Part shown: positions 26,324 through 43,733 of the stretch, piece by piece | Numbering within the stretch: position 1 is the first letter of the stretch | Layout: each line of letters opens with the position of its first letter | IMG/VR virus record: IMGVR_UViG_3300037294_000266 | Span: 202,647 to 266,646 of that record | Source of the DNA: a virus | Length of the DNA: 64,000 nt | Direction: 5' to 3' (one strand) | Notes under the pieces: model-generated | Seen by the model: the letters and a program-made list of their open reading frames with translations, nothing else | Database searches by the model: none | What the model was told of the DNA's origin: nothing | Position numbers and translations under genes: made by a program

Positions 26324-26460
26324 TTATCGCCTTCTCCCACGATAATGGTATGCCAGTTGTTTGATATCTGTATTAAACACAGATTTGTTTAAAAAGAAAT
26401 GACTCAGATTCTAGGGCCAGGTTCGGCACCAGAACCGTGGAGATCCCAACGGAGACTGCA

Positions 26461-28923: not shown

Positions 28924-30498
28924 ATGAGTGTACCACCCATTATCCAGTATCCGTTCGACAGTTCTGGCGAATCGCTAACGAACAAAGTCGAGAATGAGCG
29001 GAGAACGATTGCTCTTAATACCGAGCGAGCGTTCGTCCCTGAAGCGGGTCCGTTTTACACCAGTTCGTTTAAAATCTGGAACGATGAGACCAATGAAGAA
29101 CTTCGTCCTGTCGACGATTACATTCTGGCTCAGCCGTTTTCCCAGGCATCTATCCGGACAGCAAAAGATGTTCAGTGCGCAATCATTCTGAAAGTACAAG
29201 CGCCTATCAGCGTTCGTTATACGTATCAGGTGGTTGGCGGTGAGTATTCATGGAACCTTCAGGGTCTTGCTGATCTCATTGCTGAACTCGATCTCGATGA
29301 ACGTCCTGTTAAATGGGGCGCTGTCATTGGTCGTCCTAACGCCTATCCGCCAGCTCCGCACATCCATGACATTGGCGATTCGTTTGGCTGGGAATATGTG
29401 GTATGGCAGCTTGAGCGCATTACCAATGCTATCTTGGTTGGTGATGAAGCATCGCACGATGAACTGCGTCAGCAGATGCAGACTATCCGCGATCAGTTAC
29501 AGGCTAACATCGATGCATTGGAAGCCAAGGTTGATGAACACATCAACGACTTTGACAATCCGCACCAAACCACGAAGGCTCAAGTGGGCCTTGGCCTAGT
29601 TGATAACTTCCAGACAGCCTCTCCTGCTGAAGCTTTGGCTGGCGTTCTCGGCAATCGGTTCATGACGCCTTCGCTGTCGAATAGCCTGGCTACTCGCATT
29701 GCGACTGAAGAAGTGGCAGAGCACGAAGCCCGTAAAGATAATCCACATGAAGTCACCAAGGCTCAGACCGGGCTTGGCAATGTGGACAACTTCATTACTG
29801 CCACCCGTGCAGAGGCTGAAGCCGGTACTCTCAATACCCGGTTCATGACGCCGTTGCGGACGAAGGAGGCAATTGATTTCATCGCAGGTAACTTGCTTCA
29901 AGCGCACGTTAACGATACCAACAACCCACACATCACTACCAAGGCTCAAGTCGGGCTTGGTTTGGTTGATAACTTCCAGACAGCTACCAAAGCTGAATCG
30001 GAAGCAGGTATCCTCAACAACCGCTTCATGACTCCGTTGCGTACTAAAGAAGCGATCAACTTCATCGCTGGTAACTTGATCAATGCTCACTTGGCTGACT
30101 TTGGCAACCCTCACCAGGTAACGAAGACGCAGGTCGGCTTGAGTAACATCCCGAACGCCATCACTCGTTCCCGTACTGCTAATACCAGTGCTGAACTATT
30201 GGTAGCTGGTGCGATGTATGACCATATCCTGTCTGGCGATCACGATAGCCGTTATGTCAAGATCAACGTGGCTCAGAATACATCTTTGCGGATCGTAGGA
30301 TCAACATTGCAGGGTTATGTGTCAGGCGCTTGGCGTCAGATCTGGCCAGCGACATGGACTGGTTATGTAACGCCAGGTGCAGCAGATCCATACCCAGGTA
30401 ACGCTACCGAGATTACTCTGATGAACGCGGGCGGTATTCTGTTCGCTTCTGTCAACGGTACGTGGCGTCAGGTGTGGCCAGCTCTCTGGAACGACTAA
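28924..30498 (+). CDS. Second tail fibre protein with NPH repeats (524 aa)
   Basis: Paralogue of the preceding fibre. The N-terminal 190 residues resemble the partner's (both begin with a YPFD motif). Four NPH..T..Q.GL. repeats follow. The C-terminal 80 residues contain two similar Trp-rich units, GAWRQIWPATWTGY and GTWRQVWPALWND, the second being the very end of the protein. The gene stops 21 bases before the cupin gene that opens the modification island. That makes this fibre a candidate substrate as well as a receptor-binding protein. Confidence 0.85.
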   Translation: MSVPPIIQYPFDSSGESLTNKVENERRTIALNTERAFVPEAGPFYTSSFKIWNDETNEELRPVDDYILAQPFSQASIRTAKDVQCAIILKVQAPISVRYTYQVVGGEYSWNLQGLADLIAELDLDERPVKWGAVIGRPNAYPPAPHIHDIGDSFGWEYVVWQLERITNAILVGDEASHDELRQQMQTIRDQLQANIDALEAKVDEHINDFDNPHQTTKAQVGLGLVDNFQTASPAEALAGVLGNRFMTPSLSNSLATRIATEEVAEHEARKDNPHEVTKAQTGLGNVDNFITATRAEAEAGTLNTRFMTPLRTKEAIDFIAGNLLQAHVNDTNNPHITTKAQVGLGLVDNFQTATKAESEAGILNNRFMTPLRTKEAINFIAGNLINAHLADFGNPHQVTKTQVGLSNIPNAITRSRTANTSAELLVAGAMYDHILSGDHDSRYVKINVAQNTSLRIVGSTLQGYVSGAWRQIWPATWTGYVTPGAADPYPGNATEITLMNAGGILFASVNGTWRQVWPALWND

Positions 30499-30519
30499 TG
30501 TAAAATGAGGACTCGCAAT

Positions 30520-31032
30520 ATGTTTAAACACATTCAGGATTTTTCATTCGAAGGTGTTGACCTGTCAGCACTGAGGATAGATGATCTCCTGTCGAGTCCT
30601 CTTCCTTACGAACTCGGGCTGCCCAGGTATCTCGAGTACGGCGGTACACATTCGTTGTTTAACGCAGCTGAATACTTCGAACACAGTCAGACGAAACCCA
30701 TTAAAGTAGAGGGGATAGAGAGACTCAGTGAATTACTGTACTCGACATCCCTTCGACTAGGCAGACACTTTAACCACACAGGTCCTGTGTCTTGCCACAT
30801 GTTCATCTCGCCTGCACAATCACTTAGTTTCCCAATGCATTCTGATACAGACGACGTAATCATCTACATGGTCAGCGGCCGTAAGGTTTATGAAGGTGTG
30901 GATGGGTCGTTAGAAGTGCGCGCTGGGGACAGTATCTATATTCCGCGTGGTACTTTGCACTGCGCGGTTAACACTGACGATTCCGTCATGCTCAGCTTTG
31001 GGCTTGAACGCTACCTGGAAGATAAATTGTGA
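30520..31032 (+). CDS. Cupin / JmjC-like protein (170 aa)
   Basis: Start chosen at ATG 30520, eight bases after GAGGA. The second half has the double-stranded beta-helix signature with metal ligands His107 and Asp109 (PMHSDTDD) and His147 (RGTLHCAVN), plus the AGDSIYIPRG turn of cupins. HxD...H is the Fe(II) site of 2-oxoglutarate oxygenases, including JmjC-type protein hydroxylases, so a protein-modifying oxygenase is plausible. It overlaps the first radical SAM gene by four bases (GTGA) and so is translationally coupled to it. Confidence 0.65.
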   Translation: MFKHIQDFSFEGVDLSALRIDDLLSSPLPYELGLPRYLEYGGTHSLFNAAEYFEHSQTKPIKVEGIERLSELLYSTSLRLGRHFNHTGPVSCHMFISPAQSLSFPMHSDTDDVIIYMVSGRKVYEGVDGSLEVRAGDSIYIPRGTLHCAVNTDDSVMLSFGLERYLEDKL

Positions 31033-32072
31033 GTACTCACAAGACGATCTATGTCAAGACGACCGGGACATGCAACCTTAACTGCCAACACTGCTTCACG
31101 AATGGGAAGAACGGGGATAAAACTCAGTTTGTACCGGAGGTAGTAGCCGGATGGGTACATGATTACATGGCTCAGCATTCAGCCGATACCAGTTACCACA
31201 TGGAGTTCCATGGCGGTGAGCCGTTCATTGTTCCATTGGAGAAGCTGAAACAGTTTGCTGATCATTTTGTTGACATGGAGAACGTTTCCATGTGTGCAAA
31301 CAGCAATCTGACGTTTAAGCTGACCGATGAGTTAATCGCATTCATCAAAGACTATCTTGGTGGGTACGTCGGCACCAGTTGGGACTATTGGATACGTTGG
31401 GGAAATGCTAAGCAGTTTGATCTCTGGAAGAAGAATCTGGAGACCCTGCGTTCGCACGGAATCGGCATCGGTGTTAAAGCATCGGTGAGCCGTCAGCTCA
31501 TCGAGAAATCGCCAGACTGGTTCATTGATCAGATGGAAGCGCTGGCTATCGAAGAAGTGAGTCTTGAACGCCTCACCAATGATGGCAGTGCCGTAGATCA
31601 CTCTGGGATCTTTCCTGACAATGAGGCGCAGGATAACTGGTACCTTGCACTGTATCTCCGTTACAAAGAACGAAACCCTCGGGTAAAGATAAAGACCCTT
31701 GACATCATCGAACAGAAGCTCATCCAGAACATTGTCAAAGTAGATACCAATTGTCGAAACTGTGAGCAGAACCTTGTCACGATGAATTCAGATGGGTCTC
31801 TTTCAGGATGTCCTAACGCAGCAGCTAGTCTTCATCATGCTAGAATCGATGAAGGGGTTGAAACGTTCCTTTCTTCAGATGGGCGTATTGATCAGATTGC
31901 AAAGGAATTATCTTGGGGAGACACCTGCCTCAACTGTGACGTATTTGATCTTTGTGGCGGTGATTGTCATCGCTTACCGTGGCAAGAAGGTCGCTGCGGT
32001 GGGTTAAAGAACACGCTGCGACATCTTTCTGGCAGACAGCCACAGCAAAACAACCTGATTATAAAGGTGTGA
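31029..32072 (+). CDS. Radical SAM/SPASM protein 1 (347 aa)
   Basis: GTG start overlapping the cupin stop. Radical SAM cluster motif CxxxCxxC at Cys15, Cys19 and Cys22 (TCNLNCQHC), followed by an EFHGGEP stretch that binds the SAM amino group. The C-terminal part has many cysteines in SPASM-like spacing (CRNCEQ, LSGCP, TCLNCDVFDLCGGDCHR). Auxiliary iron-sulphur clusters of this kind occur in enzymes that modify peptides and proteins, such as sactipeptide and ranthipeptide maturases and anaerobic sulfatase-maturating enzymes. The next gene, one base downstream, encodes the protein with the Cys-His-Xaa-Ser tail, the first candidate substrate. Confidence 0.85.
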   Translation: MSTHKTIYVKTTGTCNLNCQHCFTNGKNGDKTQFVPEVVAGWVHDYMAQHSADTSYHMEFHGGEPFIVPLEKLKQFADHFVDMENVSMCANSNLTFKLTDELIAFIKDYLGGYVGTSWDYWIRWGNAKQFDLWKKNLETLRSHGIGIGVKASVSRQLIEKSPDWFIDQMEALAIEEVSLERLTNDGSAVDHSGIFPDNEAQDNWYLALYLRYKERNPRVKIKTLDIIEQKLIQNIVKVDTNCRNCEQNLVTMNSDGSLSGCPNAAASLHHARIDEGVETFLSSDGRIDQIAKELSWGDTCLNCDVFDLCGGDCHRLPWQEGRCGGLKNTLRHLSGRQPQQNNLIIKV

Positions 32073-32073
32073 C

Positions 32074-32607
32074 ATGACTGAAATAATTACACGTAACCGA
32101 ATGGCCGTGAATGCCAACTCGTTGATTACCAATCGATGTAAAGCGGGCATTTCCTGGGGGACGAACAACTACCCAGCGAACTCCGATCCTGCTTGGTTTG
32201 CGGGCACTAACGCAGGCCCTGACGCTGCATTTGGCGGCTATCAGTTTTCAGCCGGAGTTGCTAACGCACAGCAGGCGATCGACGTACTTAAATATGTCTC
32301 TAATCTATTTGCCAGTGTCCGAACCACTCGAATTGTAATTTACATGTCTCACTTCTCGCTGGGGCAGACTGTTGTTTCCGATAACACTGCAGTTGCTTGG
32401 ATCAATGCGCCTGCGGCTTTCAGTAATAACGTGGGAATGTGGTTTGCATCGGGATATGACATGGATCTTAACGCGTTTAATAACTCGTGTGAGGCTATCT
32501 ACAGTGCATATCTAGCAACGTGCCGTTATCAGACCGCTACGTTCACCCGAACCATTTGCCACACTAGCTGTCATAGCAGCTGTCATAGCAGCCGAGGCCG
32601 CCGATGA
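32074..32607 (+). CDS. Candidate modified protein with Cys-His-x-Ser tail (177 aa)
   Basis: No family is recognised for the 160-residue body, which is rich in Ala, Asn and aromatic residues. The C-terminus is striking: ICHTSCHSSCHSSRGRR, that is, three consecutive CxxS tetrapeptides with His after each Cys, then Arg-Gly-Arg-Arg. The last two units are encoded by a perfect 12-base tandem repeat (about 32565-32590). Radical SAM maturation systems with CXXX-repeat or Cys-rich precursor peptides are known, and this gene directly follows a SPASM-type radical SAM gene. It is therefore the best candidate substrate of the island. A metal-binding tail is the main alternative. Confidence 0.6.
   Translation: MTEIITRNRMAVNANSLITNRCKAGISWGTNNYPANSDPAWFAGTNAGPDAAFGGYQFSAGVANAQQAIDVLKYVSNLFASVRTTRIVIYMSHFSLGQTVVSDNTAVAWINAPAAFSNNVGMWFASGYDMDLNAFNNSCEAIYSAYLATCRYQTATFTRTICHTSCHSSCHSSRGRR
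32564..32592 (+). repeat. Tandem 12-base repeat encoding Cys-His-Ser-Ser
   Basis: Two exact copies of a 12-base unit (TGTCATAGCAGC) preceded by a diverged third copy with synonymous and one non-synonymous change. It encodes the CxxS tail of the 177-aa protein. Recent repeat expansion in a short core region is common in modified precursor peptides. Confidence 0.7.
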
Positions 32608-32657
32608 CATGTCATGTAAGTGCCATCAAACGGTCTAGAGAAGCAACTGGAGAACCC

Positions 32658-33440
32658 ATGGAACAGACTACTGAAGAAACCAAACCAGGCGGGGCGGTCA
32701 TCGACGGGCCGGTGATTGTCATTGAAACCACAGCCAATATTCCAATGGACTTACTTAAACGTAAGTTCAAAGAGAATATTGAGTTTGTCATCGATGTGGA
32801 CAACAGTCGTCTTAAAGGCGACATGCTGCTCACCTATCTGTCAAACCTCAAGCTTAACTGCAAGCTAAAGTTTGGTAGTCTCGAATCGTCTCTCGAACTC
32901 CTGTCGTCGTATTTAAAGATGTCTACGGTCATGTCGATTCCAGAATTGGAAGACCTGGCCATGAACATCATGCTGGCAGCGTATGGTAAAGATCATTACT
33001 GTCAATTCGATCCGACTGAGTTCATTCGTGACAACTCAGACATGATCGACGTGTGGCTCCGGCGGATGTGTGCACTCCCTTTGTTTGCATTACACTGTCA
33101 TCCAACGACCAAGGATTTTGTTTCTCAATTCCCAGTCGATGAAGACCATGAGCTGCACGGTATCAACTACGTGCAACTGATCAAGCACGAACTGTTCCCA
33201 GAATTCATCAATGACTTCAATCAAGAAGACATGTCGTACAACAGGTTATTGTTCAACGAATACTGTTTTGCAGGGCTGAACCTGTTTAACTATTTCGCGA
33301 TCCCCAATAACCCGTTGTTTGTGGGACTGATGGTACTCGACAAACCAGAACACCTCGAAGTGCTCATGGCTGCTGCTCATACGACTTACGTGACTGCTGA
33401 AACGATCATGAAGGAGCTCGAACATGTACCATCTGTGTAA
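32658..33440 (+). CDS. Hypothetical island protein (260 aa)
   Basis: Start chosen at ATG 32658 because GGAGAACCC precedes it. An upstream in-frame ATG at 32604 overlaps the previous stop (ATGA) and could give an 18-residue extension. Acidic N-terminus, then a helical body with several Cys/His (FALHCHP). No family recognised. It sits between the candidate substrate and a second unknown protein, and its 3' end overlaps the next gene by 17 bases, so it belongs to the same translational unit. Confidence 0.55.
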   Translation: MEQTTEETKPGGAVIDGPVIVIETTANIPMDLLKRKFKENIEFVIDVDNSRLKGDMLLTYLSNLKLNCKLKFGSLESSLELLSSYLKMSTVMSIPELEDLAMNIMLAAYGKDHYCQFDPTEFIRDNSDMIDVWLRRMCALPLFALHCHPTTKDFVSQFPVDEDHELHGINYVQLIKHELFPEFINDFNQEDMSYNRLLFNEYCFAGLNLFNYFAIPNNPLFVGLMVLDKPEHLEVLMAAAHTTYVTAETIMKELEHVPSV

Positions 33441-34470
33441 ATCGATTTACGTCGATAGCGAACACCGCATCGACCGTAATAAAGATGTGATCACAATCTC
33501 TCCAAAGATCGGGTTTGAACACATCGCTGAAGAGAAAGGTGTGCAGATCGGTTATGCTACAAGTCTGGATGAGTTGTCTCCTGAAGCGTTAGAGGCGATG
33601 CTCAACAAAGGTCTTGCTGCCGATGACCGTGTGACCGTCTATTGTGACGGTAAGACGTACTTGCGTCTTTACACCATGTTGATAAAGGCTGTATTGCCGA
33701 ACTTAACACTGGATCTGTTCCGATGGATCATGCTGTGTAAGAAGGCTACTTTCAATACGACTATCGTTGCAGGCGGCGAGCCTAACGTGGATGTGTTGGC
33801 CAGTATCCAGATCAATAACAAGGTCTGTCACGAGCTCTTCATGGAAGCCAGTACTCTGCAACCAGTGATCGATGCACTGGTCAATGAGAACCCAGACTTC
33901 CTTTCGCTGGAATGGCGCTTGATTCGTCTGCGTACTGAAGGTCGTGTCGGTAAGATCCCAGGTGTACTCAACAACATCCTGCGTCGCATTGCTCTGAGCA
34001 ATGCTCATGATGCCATGGACGTCTGGGGTCGTCATCTGACCCGCGAGAAGAACTGGGACATCGCTGGCGCTGATCTCGATACGCTTCTGAACGCACCCAC
34101 TGTGTTCGAAGGGTGTTTGAACATGCCGCACTTGGCGAGTCAACAACTCCTGCGTCCTGGTCTGTATGATTTCTCACCGACCAAGCCCTGGATCATCGGC
34201 ATGCTGCGTGAGGCCGTAGGTCTGATGGAAGTCCTTGAGGACGAGTCATCTGCTAAACGCGCTGCTCACATTCTTGAGCTGTTTAGTTCACCTGTCAATT
34301 TACGTGAGTCTGATGCATGCTTGCAGCGTGTTGTTGATATGTTTGCAGGTGAGATGCGCATTGCACTGGCTTTCAAGGATACTGGCAAATACGACGAGAA
34401 CTTGATTCGGTTCATTCTCGAATCAGATATCGAAGTGCTCAAAACTTCTCTTGAAGGGGCTGAATGGTAA
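33424..34470 (+). CDS. Hypothetical island protein (348 aa)
   Basis: Overlaps the previous gene by 17 bases and the next radical SAM gene by seven, so it is part of the coupled block. The N-terminal 90 residues look alpha/beta and the remainder helical. No catalytic motif seen. It could be a scaffold or substrate-recognition partner for the modification enzymes, which is inference from position. Confidence 0.55.
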   Translation: MYHLCKSIYVDSEHRIDRNKDVITISPKIGFEHIAEEKGVQIGYATSLDELSPEALEAMLNKGLAADDRVTVYCDGKTYLRLYTMLIKAVLPNLTLDLFRWIMLCKKATFNTTIVAGGEPNVDVLASIQINNKVCHELFMEASTLQPVIDALVNENPDFLSLEWRLIRLRTEGRVGKIPGVLNNILRRIALSNAHDAMDVWGRHLTREKNWDIAGADLDTLLNAPTVFEGCLNMPHLASQQLLRPGLYDFSPTKPWIIGMLREAVGLMEVLEDESSAKRAAHILELFSSPVNLRESDACLQRVVDMFAGEMRIALAFKDTGKYDENLIRFILESDIEVLKTSLEGAEW

Positions 34471-35462
34471 TGGACTTAATTCCCGTATTGAACATACTCG
34501 AGCAAAAGAAAGGTAAGTTGAAAGAAGCTCACCTCATTCTGTTCGAGTACTGTAATTTACGGTGTTCGTTCTGCCACCAGGACCACGAATCCAGAATCGG
34601 CATCAATACGATCCAGCAGAAAGTAGACACACTCATTGCCAACTCAAACCCACGTGATGCCTACGTGTTGAATTTGACTGGCGGTGAGTTATTTCTTGAT
34701 GAGTTCAGCGATGGGCTCTTTGAGGAATACTACGAAGCCGGTAAACGTCTCTTAGAACACTTCGACGATGCGTTGCTGGTGCTGGGTACCAATCTGATCT
34801 ATCACAATGTAGCGCGGGTCATCAAGCTGGTCAATCGCTTAAAGCGATATGGTCGTGTGCAACTTGCCACGTCTTACGATCCAGCAGGACGATTCAACGC
34901 AGAACAACGGACACTGTTCTTCAAGAACCTTATCCATGTTCGTGACCTTGTACGCACGGTCAATGTGGTTATCACCAAGCAGAACATCCAGTCGTTTCTG
35001 GATGGACATGAAGGTGCCGAGTTCAAGTGGATGTGCGAACACTTTGACGTGTACTTCGATCATTACATCCCAAGTCAGATGTACGAGTATATCCAGCCGG
35101 ATGAAGACCTAATCAGTCAGCTCTACATGCACCTGAACAAACACTACCCAGACTCGTATCCGATCAAGGACTGGAAGAACAATGTGGAGAATACCACCAC
35201 TTGTCGATCCACTAAGATCATCAATAAGGATAATGTCGTGACCACCTGTTGGTCAGAAGCTGGGAAAGACTCTATCTTGGACGAGCAAGAAGGTTTGCTA
35301 GCCAAGGATGAGGCCGAGTTGCGGTTCCTTGAGAAATACGACTGCTTTGCCTGTGAGTTCTACTCGCGATGCGGGATGCGATGTTTCTTGCATCATTCGT
35401 TTGTGGATGATGGACTTGACAATGTCTGTCAGATAAAAACGATGTTCAGAGCCATCCTGTAA
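34464..35462 (+). CDS. Radical SAM protein 2 (332 aa)
   Basis: CxxxCxxC at Cys30, Cys34 and Cys37 (EYCNLRCSFC), then NLTGGELFLDEF, the usual SAM-binding glycine stretch. The C-terminal region has SPASM-like cysteines (TTCRST, TTCWSEAG, CFACEFYSRCGMRC). An in-frame ATG at 34470 is an alternative start with better spacing to AGGGG. Last gene of the first plus-strand part of the island, followed by a strong hairpin. Confidence 0.8.
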   Translation: MVMDLIPVLNILEQKKGKLKEAHLILFEYCNLRCSFCHQDHESRIGINTIQQKVDTLIANSNPRDAYVLNLTGGELFLDEFSDGLFEEYYEAGKRLLEHFDDALLVLGTNLIYHNVARVIKLVNRLKRYGRVQLATSYDPAGRFNAEQRTLFFKNLIHVRDLVRTVNVVITKQNIQSFLDGHEGAEFKWMCEHFDVYFDHYIPSQMYEYIQPDEDLISQLYMHLNKHYPDSYPIKDWKNNVENTTTCRSTKIINKDNVVTTCWSEAGKDSILDEQEGLLAKDEAELRFLEKYDCFACEFYSRCGMRCFLHHSFVDDGLDNVCQIKTMFRAIL

Positions 35463-35467
35463 TACGT

Positions 35468-35499
35468 CATAGAGACCGGGCTGATGCCCGGTCTCTATG
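35468..35499. terminator. 14-bp hairpin between convergent island genes
   Basis: CATAGAGACCGGGC / GCCCGGTCTCTATG with loop TGAT, between the second radical SAM gene and the convergent ATP-grasp gene. Perfect stem with CATA/TATG ends and no U-tract. Confidence 0.65.
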
Positions 35500-35507
35500 T
35501 TGAGTCG

Positions 35508-36566
35508 CTAGGTCACTGCAGCGCACAGATCTTTTACACCCGATGGTGTCAGGTAACGTTCGGTTCCGAAGAGGTCATTGATGATGTTAGAGATGAACTG
35601 TTTGTGTAGGTTAGCGACTGTATTTGCTGGAACGCCTTTTATGCCGAATTGATTACAGTATTCGAACACCCCCCATTTCTTATCTTTGGTTACGAATAGA
35701 TCCAAAGAACTGAGAGGACCTATCACGTCCCGCGCCAATGCGCTTAAATCGTGAATTTGTTTAGAGGACAGCACCGACTCGATGGAAACAATGTCTTCAC
35801 CAAGGATACTGTTTGTGTTCGATCCTGATGCTTGGGGAAACCCATCGGCATTGTAGACATTACGTTTCTGGACGTAAGCGATCTCGCTCTGCGCGCCAGT
35901 GATTATACGGTACTCAGATTCAATATTGTCAACAAACGATTGAATCGAATAACCTTGGGTTTTTAGACCAGACAGGCCTTCATCGACGTGATGTTCGCCG
36001 CGTGTAGAATAAGCCATATCCGGATCGTACTTATTCAGCTCTTCAAACAGTTCTTTGCTGGTAGACATGCCCTTGATGTACTTATCAAGAGCTTCAATCA
36101 TTACAGCAAATGGAATCTTATCAGTATCGACAAGAAACTGTCCTATTCCACGAGCTCCGTCGTTAGGCTTGATGACTACCTTACCACTCGGGTTGACAAG
36201 ACTACTGAGTCCCAGTGCTTGGGAGTGCACCCATGATTTAATTTTGACGAAGTCGTCATCGTTAAACTGTAACCGCCCAGCAGTGCGCTTGACATAGTTG
36301 TTGATCCGCATTGCCTGTTCGGTTTTACTATACCGGCGATTTACGAACACCATATGTGGTGGCAGTATGCGCTCAGCAGCGATCTCATTGATCTTTAAAG
36401 TGCCGTCACTGATCATGAAATCAAAGTTGAAATGCTCCTCTCCATCAATGACGCTAAGTTGAGGGTCGTTGTGGAAGAATATTTGTTTATTGTTAATGAC
36501 AATGCCTTGATGCAGCACCCAGAAATTGTTCATGAACTTACTAACAACGATATATACACGTTCCAT
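35508..36566 (-). CDS. ATP-grasp-like ligase (352 aa)
   Basis: Start chosen at ATG 36566, six bases after AGGAG; the longer reading from 36626 lacks a site. ATP-grasp features are visible: VVIKPNDGARGIGQFLV with the phosphate-loop lysine at residue 133, a later FVDNIESEYRII segment, and a metal-binding end of the form DLFVTKDKKWGVFEYCNQFGIKG. ATP-grasp enzymes join a carboxylate to an amine or hydroxyl through an acyl-phosphate. Related enzymes make ester and amide crosslinks in graspetides or add amino acids to proteins (RimK). It is the only minus-strand gene inside the modification island. Substrate unknown. Confidence 0.65.
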   Translation of the reverse strand: MERVYIVVSKFMNNFWVLHQGIVINNKQIFFHNDPQLSVIDGEEHFNFDFMISDGTLKINEIAAERILPPHMVFVNRRYSKTEQAMRINNYVKRTAGRLQFNDDDFVKIKSWVHSQALGLSSLVNPSGKVVIKPNDGARGIGQFLVDTDKIPFAVMIEALDKYIKGMSTSKELFEELNKYDPDMAYSTRGEHHVDEGLSGLKTQGYSIQSFVDNIESEYRIITGAQSEIAYVQKRNVYNADGFPQASGSNTNSILGEDIVSIESVLSSKQIHDLSALARDVIGPLSSLDLFVTKDKKWGVFEYCNQFGIKGVPANTVANLHKQFISNIINDLFGTERYLTPSGVKDLCAAVT

Positions 36567-36624
36567 CGGAGACTCCTGATGTTTAGACCATATAAGACCA
36601 CAGGTAAGTAAAACATAACGATAC

Positions 36625-36637
36625 AATCCCTATGTAA
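36625..36637 (+). promoter_or_regulatory. Possible phage promoter, TATG-type motif
   Basis: AATCCCTATGTAA, 24 bases from the G of TATG to the start at 36658. Matches the AATCCTATGTA word before the gene at 56053. It would drive the second plus-strand part of the modification island. Confidence 0.4.
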
Positions 36638-36657
36638 TCTTTAATGCTGAGGTCGAC

Positions 36658-36906
36658 ATGGCAGTCTTTAAAGTAGGGCAAACTGTTTGGGCTGGTAAAA
36701 TACTCTCCACAGATGCATGCGGTGACCATCCTGCATTTCTACATGCACGAAAGGGCGACGAGTTAATTGTAATAGCTCACGACGATGATCGCGTTTATCC
36801 CTACAGCGTAGCGGATAATCCAGAAGGTAAAGAATCTTTCCGTGCTGCGGCATCTGATCTGATGGGTCAGAAACCATTCAAGCATAACATCGAACAAGGC
36901 TGGTGA
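36658..36906 (+). CDS. Small protein, SH3-like strand pattern (82 aa)
   Basis: Preceded by GAGG. Starts with FKVGQTVWAGKI and continues KGDELIVIAHDDDRVYPYSV, a strand order seen in small SH3-like barrels. One Cys (STDACGDHP). First gene after a possible promoter and upstream of four consecutive radical SAM genes. It could be a recognition or carrier protein for them, or a substrate. No family is certain. Confidence 0.5.
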   Translation: MAVFKVGQTVWAGKILSTDACGDHPAFLHARKGDELIVIAHDDDRVYPYSVADNPEGKESFRAAASDLMGQKPFKHNIEQGW

Positions 36907-36910
36907 GTCC

Positions 36911-37078
36911 ATGACAACTATCTTCGACACGCAAGACAAACCTTTCAAGCCACTTGAGAAAGATGACGAGTGGCTGTACCAGAAGATGAAGGAGCAGCAA
37001 GCGTCTGGTGATGTACGTCGAGATTTCCACAATGAATGGCTTGCACAGCCACCTGTTATCGAAACATCTGAGGACTGA
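36911..37078 (+). CDS. Small protein upstream of radical SAM genes (55 aa)
   Basis: ATG at 36911, four bases after the previous stop, ending three bases before the GTG of the third radical SAM gene. Sequence begins MTTIFDTQDKPFKPLEKDDE; it is highly charged, without Cys, and its C-terminal part (about NEWLAQPPVIETSED) looks unstructured. Its length, position and charged leader-like composition would suit a precursor peptide, but there is no core motif. A GAGGA near its end serves as the ribosome binding site of the next gene. Confidence 0.5.
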   Translation: MTTIFDTQDKPFKPLEKDDEWLYQKMKEQQASGDVRRDFHNEWLAQPPVIETSED

Positions 37079-37081
37079 TCT

Positions 37082-38170
37082 GTGGATGTTATAGTTAAAC
37101 CGACCGTTGCTTGTAATTTTAAGTGTACATTCTGTTCGAGTACTCATTTATCAGAAAACCCAACAGATATCGTAGAGCTCTCTACGCTTAAGCAGTTTAT
37201 CCAGCGCTTCCCAGAAACCAATACCGTGATCGTCAATGGTGGAGACCCGCTCATGATGCCTCCTGAGTATTACTGGGAGATGATTAAGATGCTGGATGAA
37301 CTTGATAGTCATGCGAGCATCAGTTTCACCAGTAACCTCTGGCCTTTCTACAAGAAGCCTGAGATATGGGAAGAGTTATTCAAACATGATCGCCTAGGTA
37401 TCACGACTTCTTTCCAATACGGTGACAAGCGCCTCAAAGGCGACAAGTCAGTCTTCACAGAAGAAGACTTCAGGAATGTCAGTGACATGTTCCTTGAACG
37501 CATTGGTTACCGTCCTAGCTTCATTGCCGTCATTGACAAGGACAACGAGCACACTGTCTTGGACACGGTTCGTCTGGCTAAGGAAATGGGTGTTGAAGCC
37601 AAGATCAACCACGTTGTTGCTTCAGGACCCGAAGTGGATAATCGTGGCATCATCATGGGCAGTCAGAATAACTTCTTCACTCAGGCGGATATCTACCGTC
37701 ATTATGTCCAGATCTACGATGCCGGTCTGATGGAGTGGGAATACAACACCAAACAGATGGCTAAGAAGCTTAAGGGATTGGCCACTACCTGTCCGTTAGC
37801 ACGGAACTGCGACAGTGGTATTCGAGCATTGCAGCCTGGCGGTGGTTATTATTCATGTGGGTCGTTTGGTGATGATGGCGAACATCCCATTGACTTCGAA
37901 GCAGAGATGGCCGGCGAGTTCTTCACCCCACTGCAATACGAAGCCGACTTAGACTCGATGAAAGAGTCGTGCTACACATGCCCTATGTTCAGTATTTGTA
38001 ATGGCTGTCGTAAAACCATTGCAGACACCAAGCGAATGGGACTTGTAGAACATCATTGCAAAACCATGAAAGAGATTGCTCCACGGATCATCGATATCAA
38101 CGGACTGACCGGTAAGGTATTTCCAACGCCATACGTTGACGAATCAGTGCAGCTCATTGCTAAGGCATAA
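37082..38170 (+). CDS. Radical SAM protein 3 (362 aa)
   Basis: GTG start after GAGGACTGATCT. CxxxCxxC at Cys11, Cys15 and Cys18 (ACNFKCTFC) and VIVNGGDPLMMPPE for SAM binding. The C-terminal region has further cysteines in SPASM-like order (CPLARNCDSG, YYSCGSFG, CYTCPMFSICNGCR). One of four radical SAM genes in a row, each within a few bases of the next. Confidence 0.85.
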   Translation: MDVIVKPTVACNFKCTFCSSTHLSENPTDIVELSTLKQFIQRFPETNTVIVNGGDPLMMPPEYYWEMIKMLDELDSHASISFTSNLWPFYKKPEIWEELFKHDRLGITTSFQYGDKRLKGDKSVFTEEDFRNVSDMFLERIGYRPSFIAVIDKDNEHTVLDTVRLAKEMGVEAKINHVVASGPEVDNRGIIMGSQNNFFTQADIYRHYVQIYDAGLMEWEYNTKQMAKKLKGLATTCPLARNCDSGIRALQPGGGYYSCGSFGDDGEHPIDFEAEMAGEFFTPLQYEADLDSMKESCYTCPMFSICNGCRKTIADTKRMGLVEHHCKTMKEIAPRIIDINGLTGKVFPTPYVDESVQLIAKA

Positions 38171-38173
38171 TTC

Positions 38174-39100
38174 ATGACAAAGCCTAAAATAAATATCAGT
38201 ATCAACCCGTGGTATTTCTGTAATTTTAAATGTGACTTCTGCTACTTGACTCCTGAGCAATTAGGGGATCGAAAGCGTCTTGACCTCGAGACACTCGAAC
38301 AACGGCTCGATGAACTCCTGCAACATTACGTTATCGGACACATCGATCTATATGGTGGTGAAGTATTACTACTGCCTGAAGAATACATCAATGCTATCCG
38401 TGACATGTTACACGTCCGAGGTATTGATGACTTGGTTCTGGTTACTAACCTGTCTCATCTCCACCCAGTCGTTCACGAGAAGGATTGGGAAATATCGGTC
38501 TCGTATGACTTTGATGCTCGTGAGAAACATGAACATGTGTTACAGAACATGCTTCTCATGACACAACCTTTCAGTATCTTGTCTCTGGCAGGGCGCCAGT
38601 TTCTCGATAAGGTTACTCCAGACATCTACGTCGACACGATGAATATGTTTGGTAATCTGAAAGGTTGTGAGATCAAACCTTACAGTAGTAACCAAGCCAA
38701 CGACCAGCCTGTGACGTACCGAGAATACGAAGAGTTTGTCTGGGCAGTGATTGATCATCCGGCTCGTAACTTCTACTTTGAGAACGCCACTCAGGTTGAA
38801 GAAGCATTTGAAGGCACTCGTAATTCATTCAGCGATGACCACATCTACATCACACCTGAAGGTAAGTTTGCAGTACTGGAGTTCGATGACAATGATCATG
38901 AATTCTTTATGCCACTGGAATCGATTGCAGAGTACCAACAGTGGTGTGTAATCGAGAAGAGCCGTGTTAATGTCAATCCGATCTGTTCGGCATGTCCTTA
39001 CAACGGATCTTGTCTCTCTGAACACCTTCGTAATGTAACGTCCCTCGATAATTCCTGTAATGGGTTCCGAGGACTCATTGATAAATGGGGTGCATCGTGA
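38174..39100 (+). CDS. Radical SAM protein 4 (308 aa)
   Basis: CxxxCxxC at Cys16, Cys20 and Cys23 (FCNFKCDFC), followed by DLYGGEVLLLPE. The C-terminal cysteines (ICSACPYNGSC, NSCNG) suggest a shortened auxiliary-cluster domain. Starts four bases after protein 3 and overlaps the start of protein 5. Its N-terminal motif and layout resemble protein 3, so the two may be paralogues. Confidence 0.8.
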   Translation: MTKPKINISINPWYFCNFKCDFCYLTPEQLGDRKRLDLETLEQRLDELLQHYVIGHIDLYGGEVLLLPEEYINAIRDMLHVRGIDDLVLVTNLSHLHPVVHEKDWEISVSYDFDAREKHEHVLQNMLLMTQPFSILSLAGRQFLDKVTPDIYVDTMNMFGNLKGCEIKPYSSNQANDQPVTYREYEEFVWAVIDHPARNFYFENATQVEEAFEGTRNSFSDDHIYITPEGKFAVLEFDDNDHEFFMPLESIAEYQQWCVIEKSRVNVNPICSACPYNGSCLSEHLRNVTSLDNSCNGFRGLIDKWGAS

Positions 39101-40149
39101 AAGCTCAACATCTTGAAGTAGAACACAGGCAGCGCCTGGAGATCACTCTCGACATCTTTCGAGGGTGTGGTCATAGCTGCTCAGGCTGCATGATCAATAC
39201 GTCGCTGGGTGGGGATGTCAACGACATTCCTGAACTCCATGCACTGATCAGTGAAATGGTTGACGTTGGGTATGTGGCGTTTGATCTCGGTGTAGGTCCT
39301 ACTGATTACATGTCTGCAGACAACACCGCCGAGGTCATGGACCATCCGGTCTTTCAAGAGATGGCGCAGAAATTCCATCAGGTTACGTTCAACGCAGCGT
39401 TCCTTGAGAAAGACATGGAGAAGTATAGGTCGATGTGCGAAGACATTGACCTGGCACTCCCTGGTAAATCTATACGCTTCTTAATTCCGGCAGCGCCTCC
39501 ATTTTTCAAGACACACAAGTTTGGCGACATGATTGAATCCAAACTTGAGTTCGTGAAGGATAATCTACATAGCGCTTACCTGAATGAAGCTGGCTTTGTG
39601 GTTAACTGCACGGCAGACACTGTGGGTGATGACTTTGAGGCCATGATGAATAATGGCTTTGATATTGAATTCCCTGTTGATAAGGATGATATCTTGAATA
39701 TCCCTTACGGTCGAGCGCCTGTAAAGGATCTGATGACGGCACAGCACATCAAGCGGATGTCTCATCGCATCACTCAGTTCTATTCAACACTGAATGGTAC
39801 AGATGAGCGTCGTCGCAATCCTGATCTCTGCTACCACACCGGTACCATGGTCAATCTCCTGTACACCGGCGGTAAGCTTTACTGGGTGCCTTTCCTTAAA
39901 GACGACTGCGCGTTCCTTGAAGATGCTTTCTCTGTGTCGAAGCCCTGGTCTATGGATAATCTCCTAAAGACTCGTCAGGCGGCTCTAGAGAGCGCTCTAG
40001 ACTACCTTAAGGACACGCCGTGCATGACCTGTCCTTATCTGAGCAGTTGTTCAGAGAAAGGTATCATTAACATCATGGAACACATGCAGATCCGTGATTG
40101 TCTAGTTGGGTTAGAACATGTTAAATCAACCGCAGAGTCCAGCGTTTAA
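39097..40149 (+). CDS. Radical SAM protein 5 (350 aa)
   Basis: Start chosen at GTG 39097, which overlaps the previous stop (GTGA) and follows GGGG. An ATG at 39085 is the alternative. CxxxCxxC at Cys24, Cys28 and Cys31 (GCGHSCSGC) with ITLDIFRG before it. The usual GGE motif is not obvious; FDLGVGPTDYMS stands in its place, shared in form with protein 6 (FTIGPVDVISS). C-terminal CMTCPYLSSCSEKG. Proteins 5 and 6 form a distinct pair within the island. Overlaps protein 6 by 32 bases. Confidence 0.75.
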   Translation: MKAQHLEVEHRQRLEITLDIFRGCGHSCSGCMINTSLGGDVNDIPELHALISEMVDVGYVAFDLGVGPTDYMSADNTAEVMDHPVFQEMAQKFHQVTFNAAFLEKDMEKYRSMCEDIDLALPGKSIRFLIPAAPPFFKTHKFGDMIESKLEFVKDNLHSAYLNEAGFVVNCTADTVGDDFEAMMNNGFDIEFPVDKDDILNIPYGRAPVKDLMTAQHIKRMSHRITQFYSTLNGTDERRRNPDLCYHTGTMVNLLYTGGKLYWVPFLKDDCAFLEDAFSVSKPWSMDNLLKTRQAALESALDYLKDTPCMTCPYLSSCSEKGIINIMEHMQIRDCLVGLEHVKSTAESSV

Positions 40150-41098
40150 TCTGACCCTTGAGATTCTACAGGGGTGTAAGTACAACTGCGTAGGCTGTAT
40201 GGTCGATAAAGACTACGAGCCTCTTATTCCATTTGACCAGGACACGGATAAGATCCTTGAAATGGTCGATGCGATGAAAGCTGAAGGGTATCGGACTCGA
40301 GAGTTTACAATCGGGCCAGTGGATGTCATCAGCTCGAAGACAGGGGATTCGATATTCGATCATCGCTTGATTAAGGGGCTGGCTGAGCGGTTTGAATCTG
40401 TCGTCATTCCGTTAGCACTGATGAAAGGGAAGTCGTTTACACTGGCCACTCCTTTCCAGCTAAAGAGTACTGACAACCCTAAACACGTCGATCTAATAAA
40501 GCGTCGTGTGATGTTCATCCAAGCGTCATTGCCTGACGTTAAATTTGAGCTACTGTACATTACCGTTAACATGATTGGCGATGCAGTAGATGCATTTGAT
40601 GTTGCATTAAACCGAAGACTCCATGATATTGATTTTGGTGTCAGACGACTCATTGAGTTTGTATTCCCTCACCCTAGAAAGGGGTTGGATAATTTACTCA
40701 TGCAGAACTTGTTTAAGCGCAACTTCGGACATTTCTGTGACGTCATTAAACAGTGTAAGAACACTGATCTAAATCGTCATCTCATTAAACCAGCTGATGA
40801 TAGCTACGAAACAACCTATCGTGATGGCAGACTGTATTACACACCGACACTGATCGAGAAGTTTCCTATATTCGATCCGATGTTTGAAATAACGTCTCCA
40901 TGGACTCTCGAGAAGATAGAGCTGTTCAAGATGGATCTCTATCTAGACAGTCTGGTTAAATATTCAGTGAGCGGACCGTGCAGTAAGTGTTGTAATTTAA
41001 GTAAGTGTGCTGAGGGCGATGTTCACTCCATCATGACTCATTTGAATGACTCGACTTGTCTGGTATCTCTTTATAACGACTGGAGTGTGATAACGTGA
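40118..41098 (+). CDS. Radical SAM protein 6 (326 aa)
   Basis: CxxxCxxC at Cys20, Cys24 and Cys27 (GCKYNCVGC) after LTLEILQ, then FTIGPVDVISS in the SAM-binding position. The C-terminal CSKCCNLSKCAEGDVHSIMTHL matches protein 5 in layout (CMTCPYLSSC...INIMEHM). Clearly paralogous to protein 5. The stop overlaps the start of the oxygenase-like gene (GTGA). Confidence 0.75.
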   Translation: MLNQPQSPAFNLTLEILQGCKYNCVGCMVDKDYEPLIPFDQDTDKILEMVDAMKAEGYRTREFTIGPVDVISSKTGDSIFDHRLIKGLAERFESVVIPLALMKGKSFTLATPFQLKSTDNPKHVDLIKRRVMFIQASLPDVKFELLYITVNMIGDAVDAFDVALNRRLHDIDFGVRRLIEFVFPHPRKGLDNLLMQNLFKRNFGHFCDVIKQCKNTDLNRHLIKPADDSYETTYRDGRLYYTPTLIEKFPIFDPMFEITSPWTLEKIELFKMDLYLDSLVKYSVSGPCSKCCNLSKCAEGDVHSIMTHLNDSTCLVSLYNDWSVIT

Positions 41099-41532
41099 GT
41101 AAGGAAGAACAGCTTACTTTTATTCAGTTAGAACAGATGCCTTTTCCAGATTGGCTGATAGACGCTGTCCTTTGTGAACCTAACAAAGCGTTCATTGAGA
41201 CAGCGTCTATCAACGACTACGTCAACAGCATCATACTGCCAATTGTTGCTGATGAACTCAACTGGCCAGACAATCTGCAAGTGACAGCAAACCATGTCCA
41301 TTGTAGCAGTGACGGACTCGAGCCACACGACCATCTCCCTCACGAATACACTTCAGTACTCTATCTCATTGATGCCGAAGGTGATCTGATTGTTCATGAC
41401 GATGGCGAACACCGTGTCACGCCAGCAGAAGGTCGGTTTGTTCTGATGGACGCTCGTCTTAAACACAGTGTTGAACCATCCAACTGCATGCGTATTTCTC
41501 TGGTGACCAACTATGCAACCACCTGCCTATAA
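41095..41532 (+). CDS. Fe(II)/2-oxoglutarate oxygenase-like protein (145 aa)
   Basis: GTG start overlapping the previous stop. The second half shows the strand pattern of prolyl-hydroxylase-like oxygenases: HDHLPHEYTSVLYLIDAEGD (first metal ligands), then EGRFVLMDARLKHSVEP (distal His) and MRISLVTNY, with an Arg in the 2-oxoglutarate position. Short for the family, so possibly a minimal domain. Overlaps the next gene by 20 bases. Confidence 0.6.
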   Translation: MSKEEQLTFIQLEQMPFPDWLIDAVLCEPNKAFIETASINDYVNSIILPIVADELNWPDNLQVTANHVHCSSDGLEPHDHLPHEYTSVLYLIDAEGDLIVHDDGEHRVTPAEGRFVLMDARLKHSVEPSNCMRISLVTNYATTCL

Positions 41533-41947
41533 AGACTATCAACTGCTCTACGATGAATATGTCCAAGAGCATGCTGACGATTTTGCTAACATGGAAATCG
41601 TTGAGGATCCTGAACTTGTGGAAAACGCGCTCCATTACTTCAAGGAAGCGTCTTTCCCGCTCATCTATCCGGCTAAGAGTTATGCGGTGGCTATCATTTA
41701 CGCCACTAAGATTCATGAACTCTACGATATCCCAGTCAAGACGACCTTGAATGATCCCGATCTATTCTTAGGACATGACCGGTACTTCGTTCCGTATGAG
41801 CTAGATCCCCACACCTACGACGCTATCTTGGCTCGCTTAGAGACTATTCCTAATTGGATGGAATCTGGCTGGGCTCCGCAGTCGGTGAAGTACTGTCTTT
41901 TAGAATGTACTGAAGACGGTGTCAACTCGGTATTGAGCGGAGAGTGA
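41513..41947 (+). CDS. Hypothetical island protein (144 aa)
   Basis: Lies between oxygenase-like genes with overlaps or contact on both sides, so it is part of the same unit. Acidic, Tyr-rich, with one segment LIYPAKSYAVAIIYATKIHELY. No family recognised. Possibly an accessory or substrate protein. Confidence 0.5.
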   Translation: MQPPAYKDYQLLYDEYVQEHADDFANMEIVEDPELVENALHYFKEASFPLIYPAKSYAVAIIYATKIHELYDIPVKTTLNDPDLFLGHDRYFVPYELDPHTYDAILARLETIPNWMESGWAPQSVKYCLLECTEDGVNSVLSGE

Positions 41948-41949
41948 CC

Positions 41950-42507
41950 ATGAACTATCTAGAGCCGTGGAAGACTGAGATCGGGCATTTCAACGTGGCT
42001 GATCAGTTTGACATGACGGCCTTTGGTGAAGAGATATTTACGTTATTTGCCATGACCAATGGAGAGGACGAAAGTCAACGTAAGATTGACCCTTCGACGT
42101 TTCCTGTCCTTCTGAAGATGCGTGATGAAACAATAACGCCAGCGGTCATTGAATATACGAAACGTTGTTTCAACTACGACATGGATAAGTTCTATGTTGA
42201 AAGTAATGGTAAGTGGATTGCAGAAGGTGAGGGACTGTATCCACATTGGCATCCTGGCTCAGTCATCTCGGTCATCTGCTATCCAGTAGATTCTGCAAAT
42301 GGTTTGAACATGTTCGATCCTAAGGGGAACGCCATTCGGGGTTATCCTAAAGAGATGCGATGGGGACATTTTGCCAACTTGAACATCTCGCCTAAAGCAG
42401 GTGACATCTTCATATTCCCCAGTTACCTCCAACACAGCGTAAGTCATGTGACAGAAGAGGTGCGGTTGTCTCTGCTCCACGAGTATTATGTCACCCACAA
42501 TTTATAG
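41950..42507 (+). CDS. Fe(II)/2-oxoglutarate oxygenase-like protein A (185 aa)
   Basis: Start chosen at ATG 41950 after GGAGAG. Contains LYPHWHPGSVISVICYP, FDPKG, ISPKAGDIFIFPSYLQHSV and VRLSLLHEY. This is the order seen in a family of putative 2OG-Fe(II) oxygenases in which HxHPxS...YY is followed by FPSWxxHxVxP and RIS. Predicted to hydroxylate a protein or small molecule. Tandem paralogue of the next gene; both begin with (I/E)xPWKxEI. Confidence 0.65.
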   Translation: MNYLEPWKTEIGHFNVADQFDMTAFGEEIFTLFAMTNGEDESQRKIDPSTFPVLLKMRDETITPAVIEYTKRCFNYDMDKFYVESNGKWIAEGEGLYPHWHPGSVISVICYPVDSANGLNMFDPKGNAIRGYPKEMRWGHFANLNISPKAGDIFIFPSYLQHSVSHVTEEVRLSLLHEYYVTHNL

Positions 42508-42519
42508 GAAGTACGTACA

Positions 42520-43071
42520 ATGAAAATCATTCAGCCGTGGAAGATAGAGATCGCCCAGTACAATCTTCTCGAACAGGTGGATAACAGTGCCATCACCGAA
42601 GAAGTCCACATGCTTCACTGCCTATCTCCACGTGACTCTCTGACACCTCTGGTAGTGACTCCAGAGCAATTCCCAGCGTTGTGTCACTTCCGTGACAAGA
42701 TTGTTCACGGACTGGTGGTTGATTACATTCGCCGAGTGTTCGGTGTTGAGCCATTCGATATTGCTACCGATACGTTTGGCAAGGTGTTCGACAAGCAACA
42801 AGGACTTGGCAGTCACTTGCATGGCAACTCGTGCCTGACGAGCGTGTACTATCCTAGCGATTCTGATGCAGGGATGTCTCTGGCAGACCCGCGCTTCAAT
42901 GCATCTCGTGGATATCCGCGTTCGATACGTGATAACCACTTTGGCGAGTTCTATGTGGCGCCTAAGGCAGGTGATCTCTGGATCATGCCTAGCTATATCC
43001 AGCACAGTGTTGCTCCAAGTACAGAAGAGATGCGTCTCTCTCTAATCAATGACTTTCATTTCAAGGCATAA
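42520..43071 (+). CDS. Fe(II)/2-oxoglutarate oxygenase-like protein B (183 aa)
   Basis: Start at ATG 42520 after AGGAAG. Same layout as protein A: GSHLHGNSCLTSVYYPSDSD, LADPR, VAPKAGDLWIMPSYIQHSVAP and EMRLSLINDF. The two arose by tandem duplication and have diverged, so they may act on different residues. Last enzyme-like gene of the modification island. Confidence 0.65.
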   Translation: MKIIQPWKIEIAQYNLLEQVDNSAITEEVHMLHCLSPRDSLTPLVVTPEQFPALCHFRDKIVHGLVVDYIRRVFGVEPFDIATDTFGKVFDKQQGLGSHLHGNSCLTSVYYPSDSDAGMSLADPRFNASRGYPRSIRDNHFGEFYVAPKAGDLWIMPSYIQHSVAPSTEEMRLSLINDFHFKA

Positions 43072-43073
43072 TC

Positions 43074-43733
43074 ATGACTGATGAAGAGAATGGCTTGTAT
43101 CCAGGTGTAGACCGTGGCATGTTCCGGGTCATGCGTCTTCTAGATAACTCAGGTGTCCAATTGAAAGCACAGGTACGGATCAAGAATCTGTCTGTCTTCA
43201 ACTTCCTGAGCGATCTCCAATATGCTGTAATTGGCTATGGTCTCGAATGGTGGCGTGATGGTGAACCAGGTCCTCATGAGGCCGGTGAAGCAAATCCGTA
43301 CATCCCACGCGGCCGTCCTAACATCAGTCGGTTGTACTTCAGGGGTAAGACCAGTATTACTCCAAAGATGTTGCACTTAGAGGATGCGGTCATCAATGAC
43401 TTCATCAACTCTAAAGCTCTGGCTGATCCGATGACATACTCGACGTATGCATTGGAAGCCGCTGAACAAACCAGCAGTGCGGCTGTATGGCGTGATCTGG
43501 GTAAAACAGCATTCCAGTATGCCAACGCAGTTCATATTACCAAGTTAGAAGCTTCCTCCACCACCCCTCTTGAAATTGTGGTTGAGGGTCTGCGCTTCGA
43601 GTACCGTCGTAAAGCGTCTCCAGATATTGTGAAGACTGCAGACATTAAACCGTACAAGTTCACCAAACTTCGTGATTGTTACGAAGCCATGCAAACATTT
43701 ATCGAAAATGAGGTTACCAATGGCGATTTCTAA
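43074..43733 (+). CDS. Hypothetical protein (219 aa)
   Basis: Starts two bases after the second oxygenase and overlaps the endolysin by 14 bases, linking the island to lysis genes. Mixed alpha/beta with GLEWWRDGEPGPHEAGEANP. No family recognised. Could be a further island member or a virion protein. Confidence 0.5.
   Translation: MTDEENGLYPGVDRGMFRVMRLLDNSGVQLKAQVRIKNLSVFNFLSDLQYAVIGYGLEWWRDGEPGPHEAGEANPYIPRGRPNISRLYFRGKTSITPKMLHLEDAVINDFINSKALADPMTYSTYALEAAEQTSSAAVWRDLGKTAFQYANAVHITKLEASSTTPLEIVVEGLRFEYRRKASPDIVKTADIKPYKFTKLRDCYEAMQTFIENEVTNGDF

Follow-up and report, generated by a model that had tools for sequence, protein, structure and literature searches.

A radical SAM cassette of jumbo phages probably modifies the C-terminal tail of a fibre-associated phage protein

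We find that a 64,000-nucleotide stretch of viral DNA (the window; positions 202,647 to 266,646 of IMG/VR record IMGVR_UViG_3300037294_000266) carries an island of enzyme genes that probably forms a RiPP-like maturation line acting on the phage's own fibre-associated structural protein. We infer the modification, the division of labor among the enzymes and, in this phage, the virion location. The island holds all of the Pfam-detectable radical SAM genes in the 266-kb viral record. A preliminary description of this DNA proposed that the island modifies either one of the phage's own proteins or a host target. Comparison with related loci favors the first of these, and the island itself encodes a specific candidate substrate. 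The evidence does not favor a host target; the most likely target is a fibre-associated virion protein whose C-terminus repeats CHxS. The missing substrate is likely the product of the gene directly after rSAM1 (32074-32607), which the earlier description overlooked, and it is probable that phages with this cassette chemically remodel the tail of this one protein. The predicted features are as follows.

28924-30498, plus strand: tail-fibre protein containing NPHxTTKAQVGLG repeats, immediately upstream of the island; orthologue of FLC6 gp68
30505-31032, plus strand: cupin/JmjC_2-like Fe(II) enzyme (PF07883 40.5 bits, PF08007 37.2 bits); conserved core gene
31029-32072, plus strand: rSAM1, radical SAM/SPASM enzyme, always adjoining the CHxS protein; own clade (100/99)
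32074-32607, plus strand: proposed substrate, 177 aa, with a folded body of about residues 1-160 and a flexible tail, ICHTSCHSSCHSSRGRR
32557-32604, plus strand: (CHxS)3-RGRR tail, where modification is proposed; low model confidence
32604-33440, plus strand: U278, conserved partner from a family without a name (phrog_20767)
33424-34470, plus strand: U348, conserved partner with a faint rhodanese-like stretch (E 0.083)
34464-35462, plus strand: rSAM2, radical SAM/SPASM enzyme; own clade (100/99)
35508-36626, minus strand: ATP-grasp-like protein (E 0.025); accessory
36658-36906, plus strand: small open reading frame, rarely conserved (the gene survey gave three members of its family)
37082-38170, plus strand: rSAM3, radical SAM/SPASM enzyme (PF04055 44.3 bits); own clade (100/99)
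38174-39100, plus strand: rSAM4, radical SAM enzyme (PF04055 36.8 bits); own clade (93/94)
39085-40149, plus strand: rSAM5, divergent radical SAM-like enzyme (CxxxCxxC at 28/32/35; family-level Pfam matches)
40118-41098, plus strand: rSAM6, divergent radical SAM enzyme paralogous to rSAM5
41095-41532, plus strand: 2OG-Fe(II) oxygenase-like protein, borderline (PF13640 26.4 versus 27 bits)
41513-41947, plus strand: U144, small conserved partner (phrog_20737)
41944-42507, plus strand: 2OG-Fe(II) oxygenase (PF13759 41.8 bits; phrog_81)
42520-43071, plus strand: 2OG-Fe(II) oxygenase (PF13759 42.7 bits); paralogue of the 41944-42507 gene

All six proteins earlier described as radical SAM enzymes contain a CxxxCxxC motif in their N-terminal third. 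The cysteine positions were as first given in five of the six (15/19/22, 30/34/37, 11/15/18, 16/20/23 and 20/24/27 in rSAM1-4 and rSAM6), and the motif at 28/32/35 in the longest open reading frame of rSAM5 is the same as the earlier 24/28/31 with a start four codons later. Each of the six also has a CX2CX5C...C set near the C-terminus, in agreement with the SPASM-like cysteines noted before. The curated cut-off for Pfam Radical_SAM was passed by rSAM3 and rSAM4 only; rSAM1 (25.3 bits), rSAM2 (24.1 bits) and rSAM6 (19.9 bits) matched below it. The rSAM5 of the window had no Pfam Radical_SAM match, but 5 of 23 members of its family do. Across the rSAM1-6 families the CxxxCxxC motif is kept in 101/102, 80/80, 58/61, 52/52, 86/86 and 47/47 members, respectively. 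With the SPASM domain model, rSAM1 scored 26.4 bits against a cut-off of 27 and rSAM3 scored 18.2, and 15 of 18 rSAM1 relatives matched at E 1e-5. rSAM1-4 represent four orthologous clades. The nearest models and structures to rSAM1 are mostly peptide or protein maturases; PDB sequence searches with rSAM5, rSAM6 and U348 gave nothing solid. The cupin and the oxygenases at 41944 and 42520 scored above their Pfam cut-offs, with the third oxygenase-like protein (41095) borderline. Profile searches and the motif check upheld the radical SAM, cupin and oxygenase assignments, and cofactor pathways gave no match above cut-off. The ATP-grasp assignment is weak; the gene is on the opposite strand and occurs in only 4 of 25 close relatives, and we dropped it as a core member.

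The 177-aa CHxS protein is predicted to be folded with a flexible C-terminus ending in ...CHTSCHSSCHSSRGRR. This tail is the sole long low-confidence part of the structure model (pLDDT 52-67). The body of the protein diverges among relatives (28% mean column identity) and the tail is nearly invariant, with codons free to vary synonymously. In 89 distinct tails the Cys, the His, the RGRR and a third CH that the search pattern did not demand were invariant, and the residue two after each His was restricted to Ser, Asn or Ala. Two loci (L015 and L022) have expanded arrays, and the CHxS protein of a third (L028) is fused to the fibre chaperone domain S74. Fold searches with the substrate body and U278 found no match among solved structures in the PDB, U278 had no Pfam or NCBIfam match, and a BFVD fold search returned only relatives of unknown function. 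In the named phages, tblastn gave no match with either the bare 25-aa tail, a low-complexity query, or a short CHxS protein of 127 aa. A different, rSAM5-like enzyme set accompanies the paired short CHxS variant, which could not be placed at a fibre in every locus.

The association between the enzymes and the motif was found from both directions. When loci were retrieved with rSAM1 only, the next gene ended in a CHxx repeat in all 27 loci where that gene was complete. When they were retrieved with the DNA pattern of the repeat only, 109 of 116 viral loci had radical SAM genes within the fetched stretch. When Cys and His were exchanged in a control pattern, it had 0 matches in the same collection; this, together with the invariant third CH, led us to reject a chance origin of the motif. 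In cellular genomes, radical SAM genes lay beside 15/15 true C-terminal motifs and 0/8 stray pattern matches.

The preliminary description considered so large a block unusual within a phage structural region. Neighborhood comparison revealed instead a conserved cassette in more than 100 viral contigs. Its recurring core consists of the cupin, rSAM1, the substrate, two uncharacterized proteins and rSAM2-4, often with oxygenases, and it is carried by jumbo phages, many smaller viral contigs and predatory bacteria. The pairing of CHxS and radical SAM genes recurs in more than 100 phage contigs other than this one and is kept in the copies in Bdellovibrionota genomes. The cupin is present in 23/25 close relatives and 12/14 complete loci, U144 in 21/25 close relatives and U278 in 99/116 pattern-found loci. 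The CHxS protein is a constant neighbor across phages that differ in their other gene content. Pseudomonas phage pPa_SNUABM_DT01 (gp52-gp67; MW735835) has nearly the same gene order with 45-77% identity per gene, lacking the ATP-grasp gene and one oxygenase at the corresponding place. The DT01 authors placed the six radical SAM genes in DNA repair and host metabolism and did not recognize a modification system (PMC8541153).

A fibre-type gene is located upstream of the cassette in 25/25 close relatives, and a tail-fibre gene adjoins the CHxS gene in most of the more distant loci examined. On Bdellovibrionota chromosomes, CHxS clusters adjoin genes for fibre chaperones with an S74 domain. The CHxS orthologue in phage Atu_ph07 is gp170, which is the first, boundary gene of a virion-protein cluster (CDS 170-215) supported by mass spectrometry (PMC6102473); on this one cluster boundary, the CHxS protein is a candidate virion component.

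In the mechanism we propose, the folded body of the 177-aa protein would serve as a built-in leader and anchor, and the flexible (CHxS)3-RGRR tail would be modified. Within the repeat, Cys, His and Ser/Asn would be the targets of rSAM1-4, joined in this lineage by the divergent rSAM5 and rSAM6; hydroxylation or further oxidation would be the work of the cupin and 2OG oxygenases. The likely role of U278 and U348 is recognition or scaffolding, with U278 possibly recognizing the substrate. The finished protein would most likely join the neighboring tail fibre, forming a tip or a distal part of adhesin type; a tail locked chemically could aid binding or penetration there.

All of the island's radical SAM enzymes score far below the curated cut-offs of characterized maturases, so no reaction can be transferred to them. 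A known RiPP class was rejected because every curated cut-off was missed. The His-Xaa-Ser (HxsABCD) system, reportedly described by Haft and Basu, likewise encodes, next to its radical SAM enzymes, a substrate with H-x-S repeats. Its models matched the island poorly (HxsB 27.9/370 bits with rSAM1; HxsC 24.7/267.9 bits with rSAM3; no HxsD match), and the island repeat differs in being C-H-x-S followed by RGRR. The substrate of the CXXX-repeat system (TIGR04115) likewise has Cys at every fourth residue, but in the island each Cys precedes a His, in a substrate that is a folded protein of the phage; 3/18 rSAM1 members gave weak TIGR04115 matches and the window rSAM1 gave none at E 1e-5. The nearest models of rSAM1 are the cyclophane SPASM maturases AmcB, YhhB and FxsB, with DynA; its scores reached at most about one eighth of the cut-offs (AmcB 53.6/425, YhhB 46/445, FxsB 41.8/370 bits). 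Cyclophane substrates follow an aromatic-x-polar rule, and the H-x-[S/N] found in most CHxS repeats, with Ala in some, would suit it, although the island substrate is not a short peptide. Our leading guess for the tail chemistry, and the least certain part of the proposal, is side-chain cross-linking through a His-x-Ser/Asn cyclophane or Cys thioether; an epimer or a hydroxylated residue would be other candidate products.

Formylglycine formation is a real alternative for this chemistry. Over its full length, rSAM1 has anaerobic sulfatase maturases among its best matches, with TIGR03942 matching all 18 members and 4k36/4k37 being the top PDB matches. The particular version in which rSAM1 is such a maturase, converting repeat Cys or Ser to an aldehyde that anchors the tail to a receptor or fibre, is unlikely. 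rSAM1 reaches 50.5 of the 349 bits set as cut-off, the sulfatase motif C/S-x-P/A-x-R is absent from the repeat, a Pfam search found no sulfatase in the island, and several further radical SAM enzymes would need a role.

It is quite unlikely that the system makes a released phage RiPP, in which the modified repeat is cut from the 160-aa body and acts as a toxin against competitors or as a signal. As with RiPPs, the precursor is encoded beside its maturation enzymes, these adjoin a repeated C-terminal core, and the arrays of L015 and L022 are expanded. Against this, RiPP precursors are short (<~10 kDa, leader plus core), whereas here 177 aa include a 160-aa body that is conserved and confidently folded in the model. 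No leader peptidase or exporter was recognized in the island, and the gene adjoins fibre genes, its orthologue heading the cluster of virion proteins in Atu_ph07.

Some phage spikes are known to bind iron at their tips via histidines, and the Cys-His spacing of the CHxS tail is regular. The tail could be a metal-binding tip (Zn or Fe held by Cys/His, for instance in a trimer) that is not covalently modified, with the radical SAM enzymes acting elsewhere or assembling the metal site. We regard this as very unlikely; with radical SAM pairing strict in both search directions, simple metal binding is not expected, and the residue two places past each His is likewise limited to Ser, Asn or Ala. Another reading, in which the enzymes belong to a metabolic or cofactor pathway or act on host proteins and the CHxS protein is a passenger or carrier, agrees with the roles assigned in DT01 but is highly improbable, given that no cofactor-pathway model matched above cut-off, for which we rejected a metabolic or cofactor operon, and that the CHxS pairing persists across phages of differing gene content and in Bdellovibrionota.

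Returning to maturation of a fibre-associated protein, we tentatively suggest, at somewhat less than even odds, a wider reading. Phages and predatory Bdellovibrionota would share an undescribed class of protein maturation, with several radical SAM enzymes and iron oxygenases giving a fibre protein that binds cell surfaces a C-terminal tip of densely cross-linked (CHxS)n. Such an attachment chemistry, to host or prey, would have no known counterpart in any virus. The mosaic adhesive trimer (MAT) fibres of Bdellovibrio are phage-like and many have S74 chaperones, as do the neighbors of CHxS clusters, but the part of the MAT paper available to us describes no radical SAM modification (PMC10769870). 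None of our tests identified CHxS proteins as MATs.

Secreted peptides and a few bacterial enzymes are known to be matured by radical SAM enzymes, and to our knowledge no virion protein is made in this way. In the open-license literature we found no description of the CHxS motif or of radical SAM modification of phage fibres; until now the genes of the cassette have been labeled hypothetical or assigned to DNA repair. The cassette presents a defined substrate motif and four conserved enzymes whose reaction is uncharacterized. If the proposal is correct, it raises the question of whether phages chemically modify their receptor-binding parts. The culturable phages DT01, FLC6, SURPRISE13, Atu_ph07 and Phosso carry the cassette and allow a direct test. 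Separately, FLC6 gp68, the orthologue of the upstream fibre gene, is annotated as a virion structural protein.

The window covers positions 202647-266646 of a 266,646-bp viral record. The island and its borders have the following features, in window coordinates:

28924-30498, tail-fibre gene, upstream border of the island
31029-41098 (+), six radical SAM genes, rSAM1 to rSAM6 in gene order
32074-32607 (+), the 177-aa CHxS protein, proposed substrate
32604-33440, 33424-34470 and 41513-41947, the conserved partner proteins U278, U348 and U144
43720-44439, transglycosylase-like gene, downstream border of the island

The preliminary description had proposed six radical SAM enzymes here, and the window sequence bears out the six CxxxCxxC motifs with SPASM-like cysteines. 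Pfam accepted two of the six proteins outright, gave sub-threshold matches to three and left rSAM5 unmatched; it matched 5 of 23 members of the rSAM5 family, though it missed rSAM5 of the window itself. The proposed cupin had a Pfam match above the cut-off, as did two of the three proposed oxygenases, the third being borderline. The supposed ATP-grasp ligase had a weak Pfam match, and its gene occurs in only 4 of 25 close relatives. The fibre genes at 26437-28854 and 28924-30498 are paralogous, and each also matches the other's orthologue in Pseudomonas phage pPa_SNUABM_DT01. The U348 family contains a faint rhodanese-like stretch (E 0.083), which may point to the handling of sulphur or persulphide.

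Directly downstream of rSAM1 is a gene overlooked in that description, encoding the CHxS protein, which ends in ICHTSCHSSCHSSRGRR. The same block was found in phage DT01 with nearly identical gene order; the counterpart there is 49% identical overall, yet its C-terminus is ICHTSCHTSCHSARGRR. Using rSAM1 as a query against 2.9 million viral contigs we found 28 loci, and a CHxx repeat ends the next gene in every locus where that gene is complete. Three units are usual; L021 has two, L027 and L028 have four, and L015 and L022 have 13-14. Some CH units of the long arrays (L015:11037-11720, L022:11036-11740) are separated by NVPV or NVV spacers, and the L027 protein has a Gly-rich tail at its end.

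We also searched in reverse with the DNA pattern for CHxxCHxxRGRR-stop, which matched at least 119 stretches in the viral collection; a control pattern that carried the same information but had Cys and His swapped gave no matches there. All 89 distinct tails among the matches listed contain a third CH, although the pattern did not require one. Radical SAM genes were present in 109 of 116 pattern-found loci among the matches listed, a set not fully independent of the rSAM1-found set because some loci derive from the same contigs. Of the seven loci without them, five are stretches of at most 4.1 kb and one stops immediately downstream of the motif gene. Run against cellular genomes totalling 257 billion bases, the same pattern matched 23 stretches: 15 are true motifs at a C-terminus, each with radical SAM genes close by, and eight are stray matches, none with such genes nearby. 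CHxS genes accompanied by radical SAM genes also occur on four contigs binned as Euryarchaeota or Rhodobacteraceae (L150, L160, L164, L171), which are probably phage sequences assigned to the wrong bin.

The 48-nt tail has 128 distinct nucleotide versions among the matches listed, with synonymous variation of C, H, R and G codons at every invariant residue. Outside the tail the protein diverges, mean column identity being 28% over the whole alignment. AlphaFold gave the body a mean pLDDT of 91 and the tail 52-67, predicting a folded domain with a flexible C-terminal appendage. The body matched no PDB fold, and its viral fold matches are relatives without assigned function.

Among 25 close loci that extend 8.5 kb or more downstream, the fibre gene, rSAM1, U278, U348 and rSAM3 were present in all, an oxygenase in 24, the cupin, rSAM2, rSAM4 and rSAM6 in 23, rSAM5 in 22 and U144 in 21. 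Fourteen pattern-found loci with adequate flanks (among the matches listed) all contained rSAM1, U278 and rSAM2; U348, rSAM3, rSAM4 and the cupin were found in 12 and an oxygenase in nine. In a tree, rSAM1, rSAM2, rSAM3 and rSAM4 each fall in a clade of their own (support 93/94 for rSAM4 and 100/99 for the other three) and are therefore four conserved enzymes, not recent copies. A second cassette variant has two short CHxS proteins, several rSAM5-like enzymes and U278. Two Burkholderia phage cassettes have two dihydrofolate-reductase-like genes flanked by radical SAM genes (L192:18319-19532, L195:18406-19583).

We consider the CHxS tail very probably the target of the island enzymes. The nearest characterised relatives of rSAM1, always matched far below the cut-off, act mostly on peptides or proteins; they are cyclophane formers and ranthipeptide and sulfatase maturases. 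Within the repeat, thioether or formylglycine chemistry could draw on Cys, and a cyclophane could form at H-x-S/N. That four enzymes are conserved, alongside oxygenases, points to more than a single modification; cross-linking is tentatively proposed as the principal chemistry. In its logic the system follows radical SAM peptide maturation. Six radical SAM genes were remarked on in the DT01 paper, whose authors suggested a part in DNA repair or host metabolism (PMC8541153), and the FLC6 and SURPRISE13 papers list radical SAM genes without function (PMC8066314, PMC11898562). Our search of open-licence papers found no description of the CHxS motif or system.

A fibre-associated role in the virion appears likely for the CHxS protein. 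A tail-fibre gene, often with a chaperone-like C-terminal domain, precedes the cassette in nearly all loci examined; one upstream fibre had a Peptidase_G2 match below the cut-off (E 0.0004). At L028:11053-12000 the CHxS protein and a Peptidase_S74 fibre chaperone domain form a single fusion, with the chaperone domain at the C-terminus and RGRR replaced. The Agrobacterium phage Atu_ph07 orthologue, FDI40_gp170, ends in CHSSCHASCHNSRSRR. According to the Atu_ph07 paper, three clusters hold most MS-identified virion proteins, one being CDS 170-215 (PMC6102473); record and paper numbering agree for gp181, gp198 and gp204. From its place at this cluster's boundary, gp170 itself may have been among the proteins detected.

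The cassette also occurs in several MAGs of the predatory Bdellovibrionota, where it lies on long contigs alongside housekeeping genes; those in L196 include a gene that by eye resembles rpsT and one for 3-hydroxyacyl-CoA dehydrogenase. Its distribution in one order is patchy, the exact pattern being present in 5 of 129 genomes, and these cassettes, known from MAG contigs, may be of prophage origin. Phage-like S74 fibres are known to serve prey recognition in Bdellovibrio (PMC10769870). Cassette neighbours in Bdellovibrionota include Peptidase_S74 proteins, one with a prepilin methylation motif. Three of the MAG loci L196-L201 have adjoining S74-domain proteins and a conserved protein of about 200 aa ending in GRHWVxVK.
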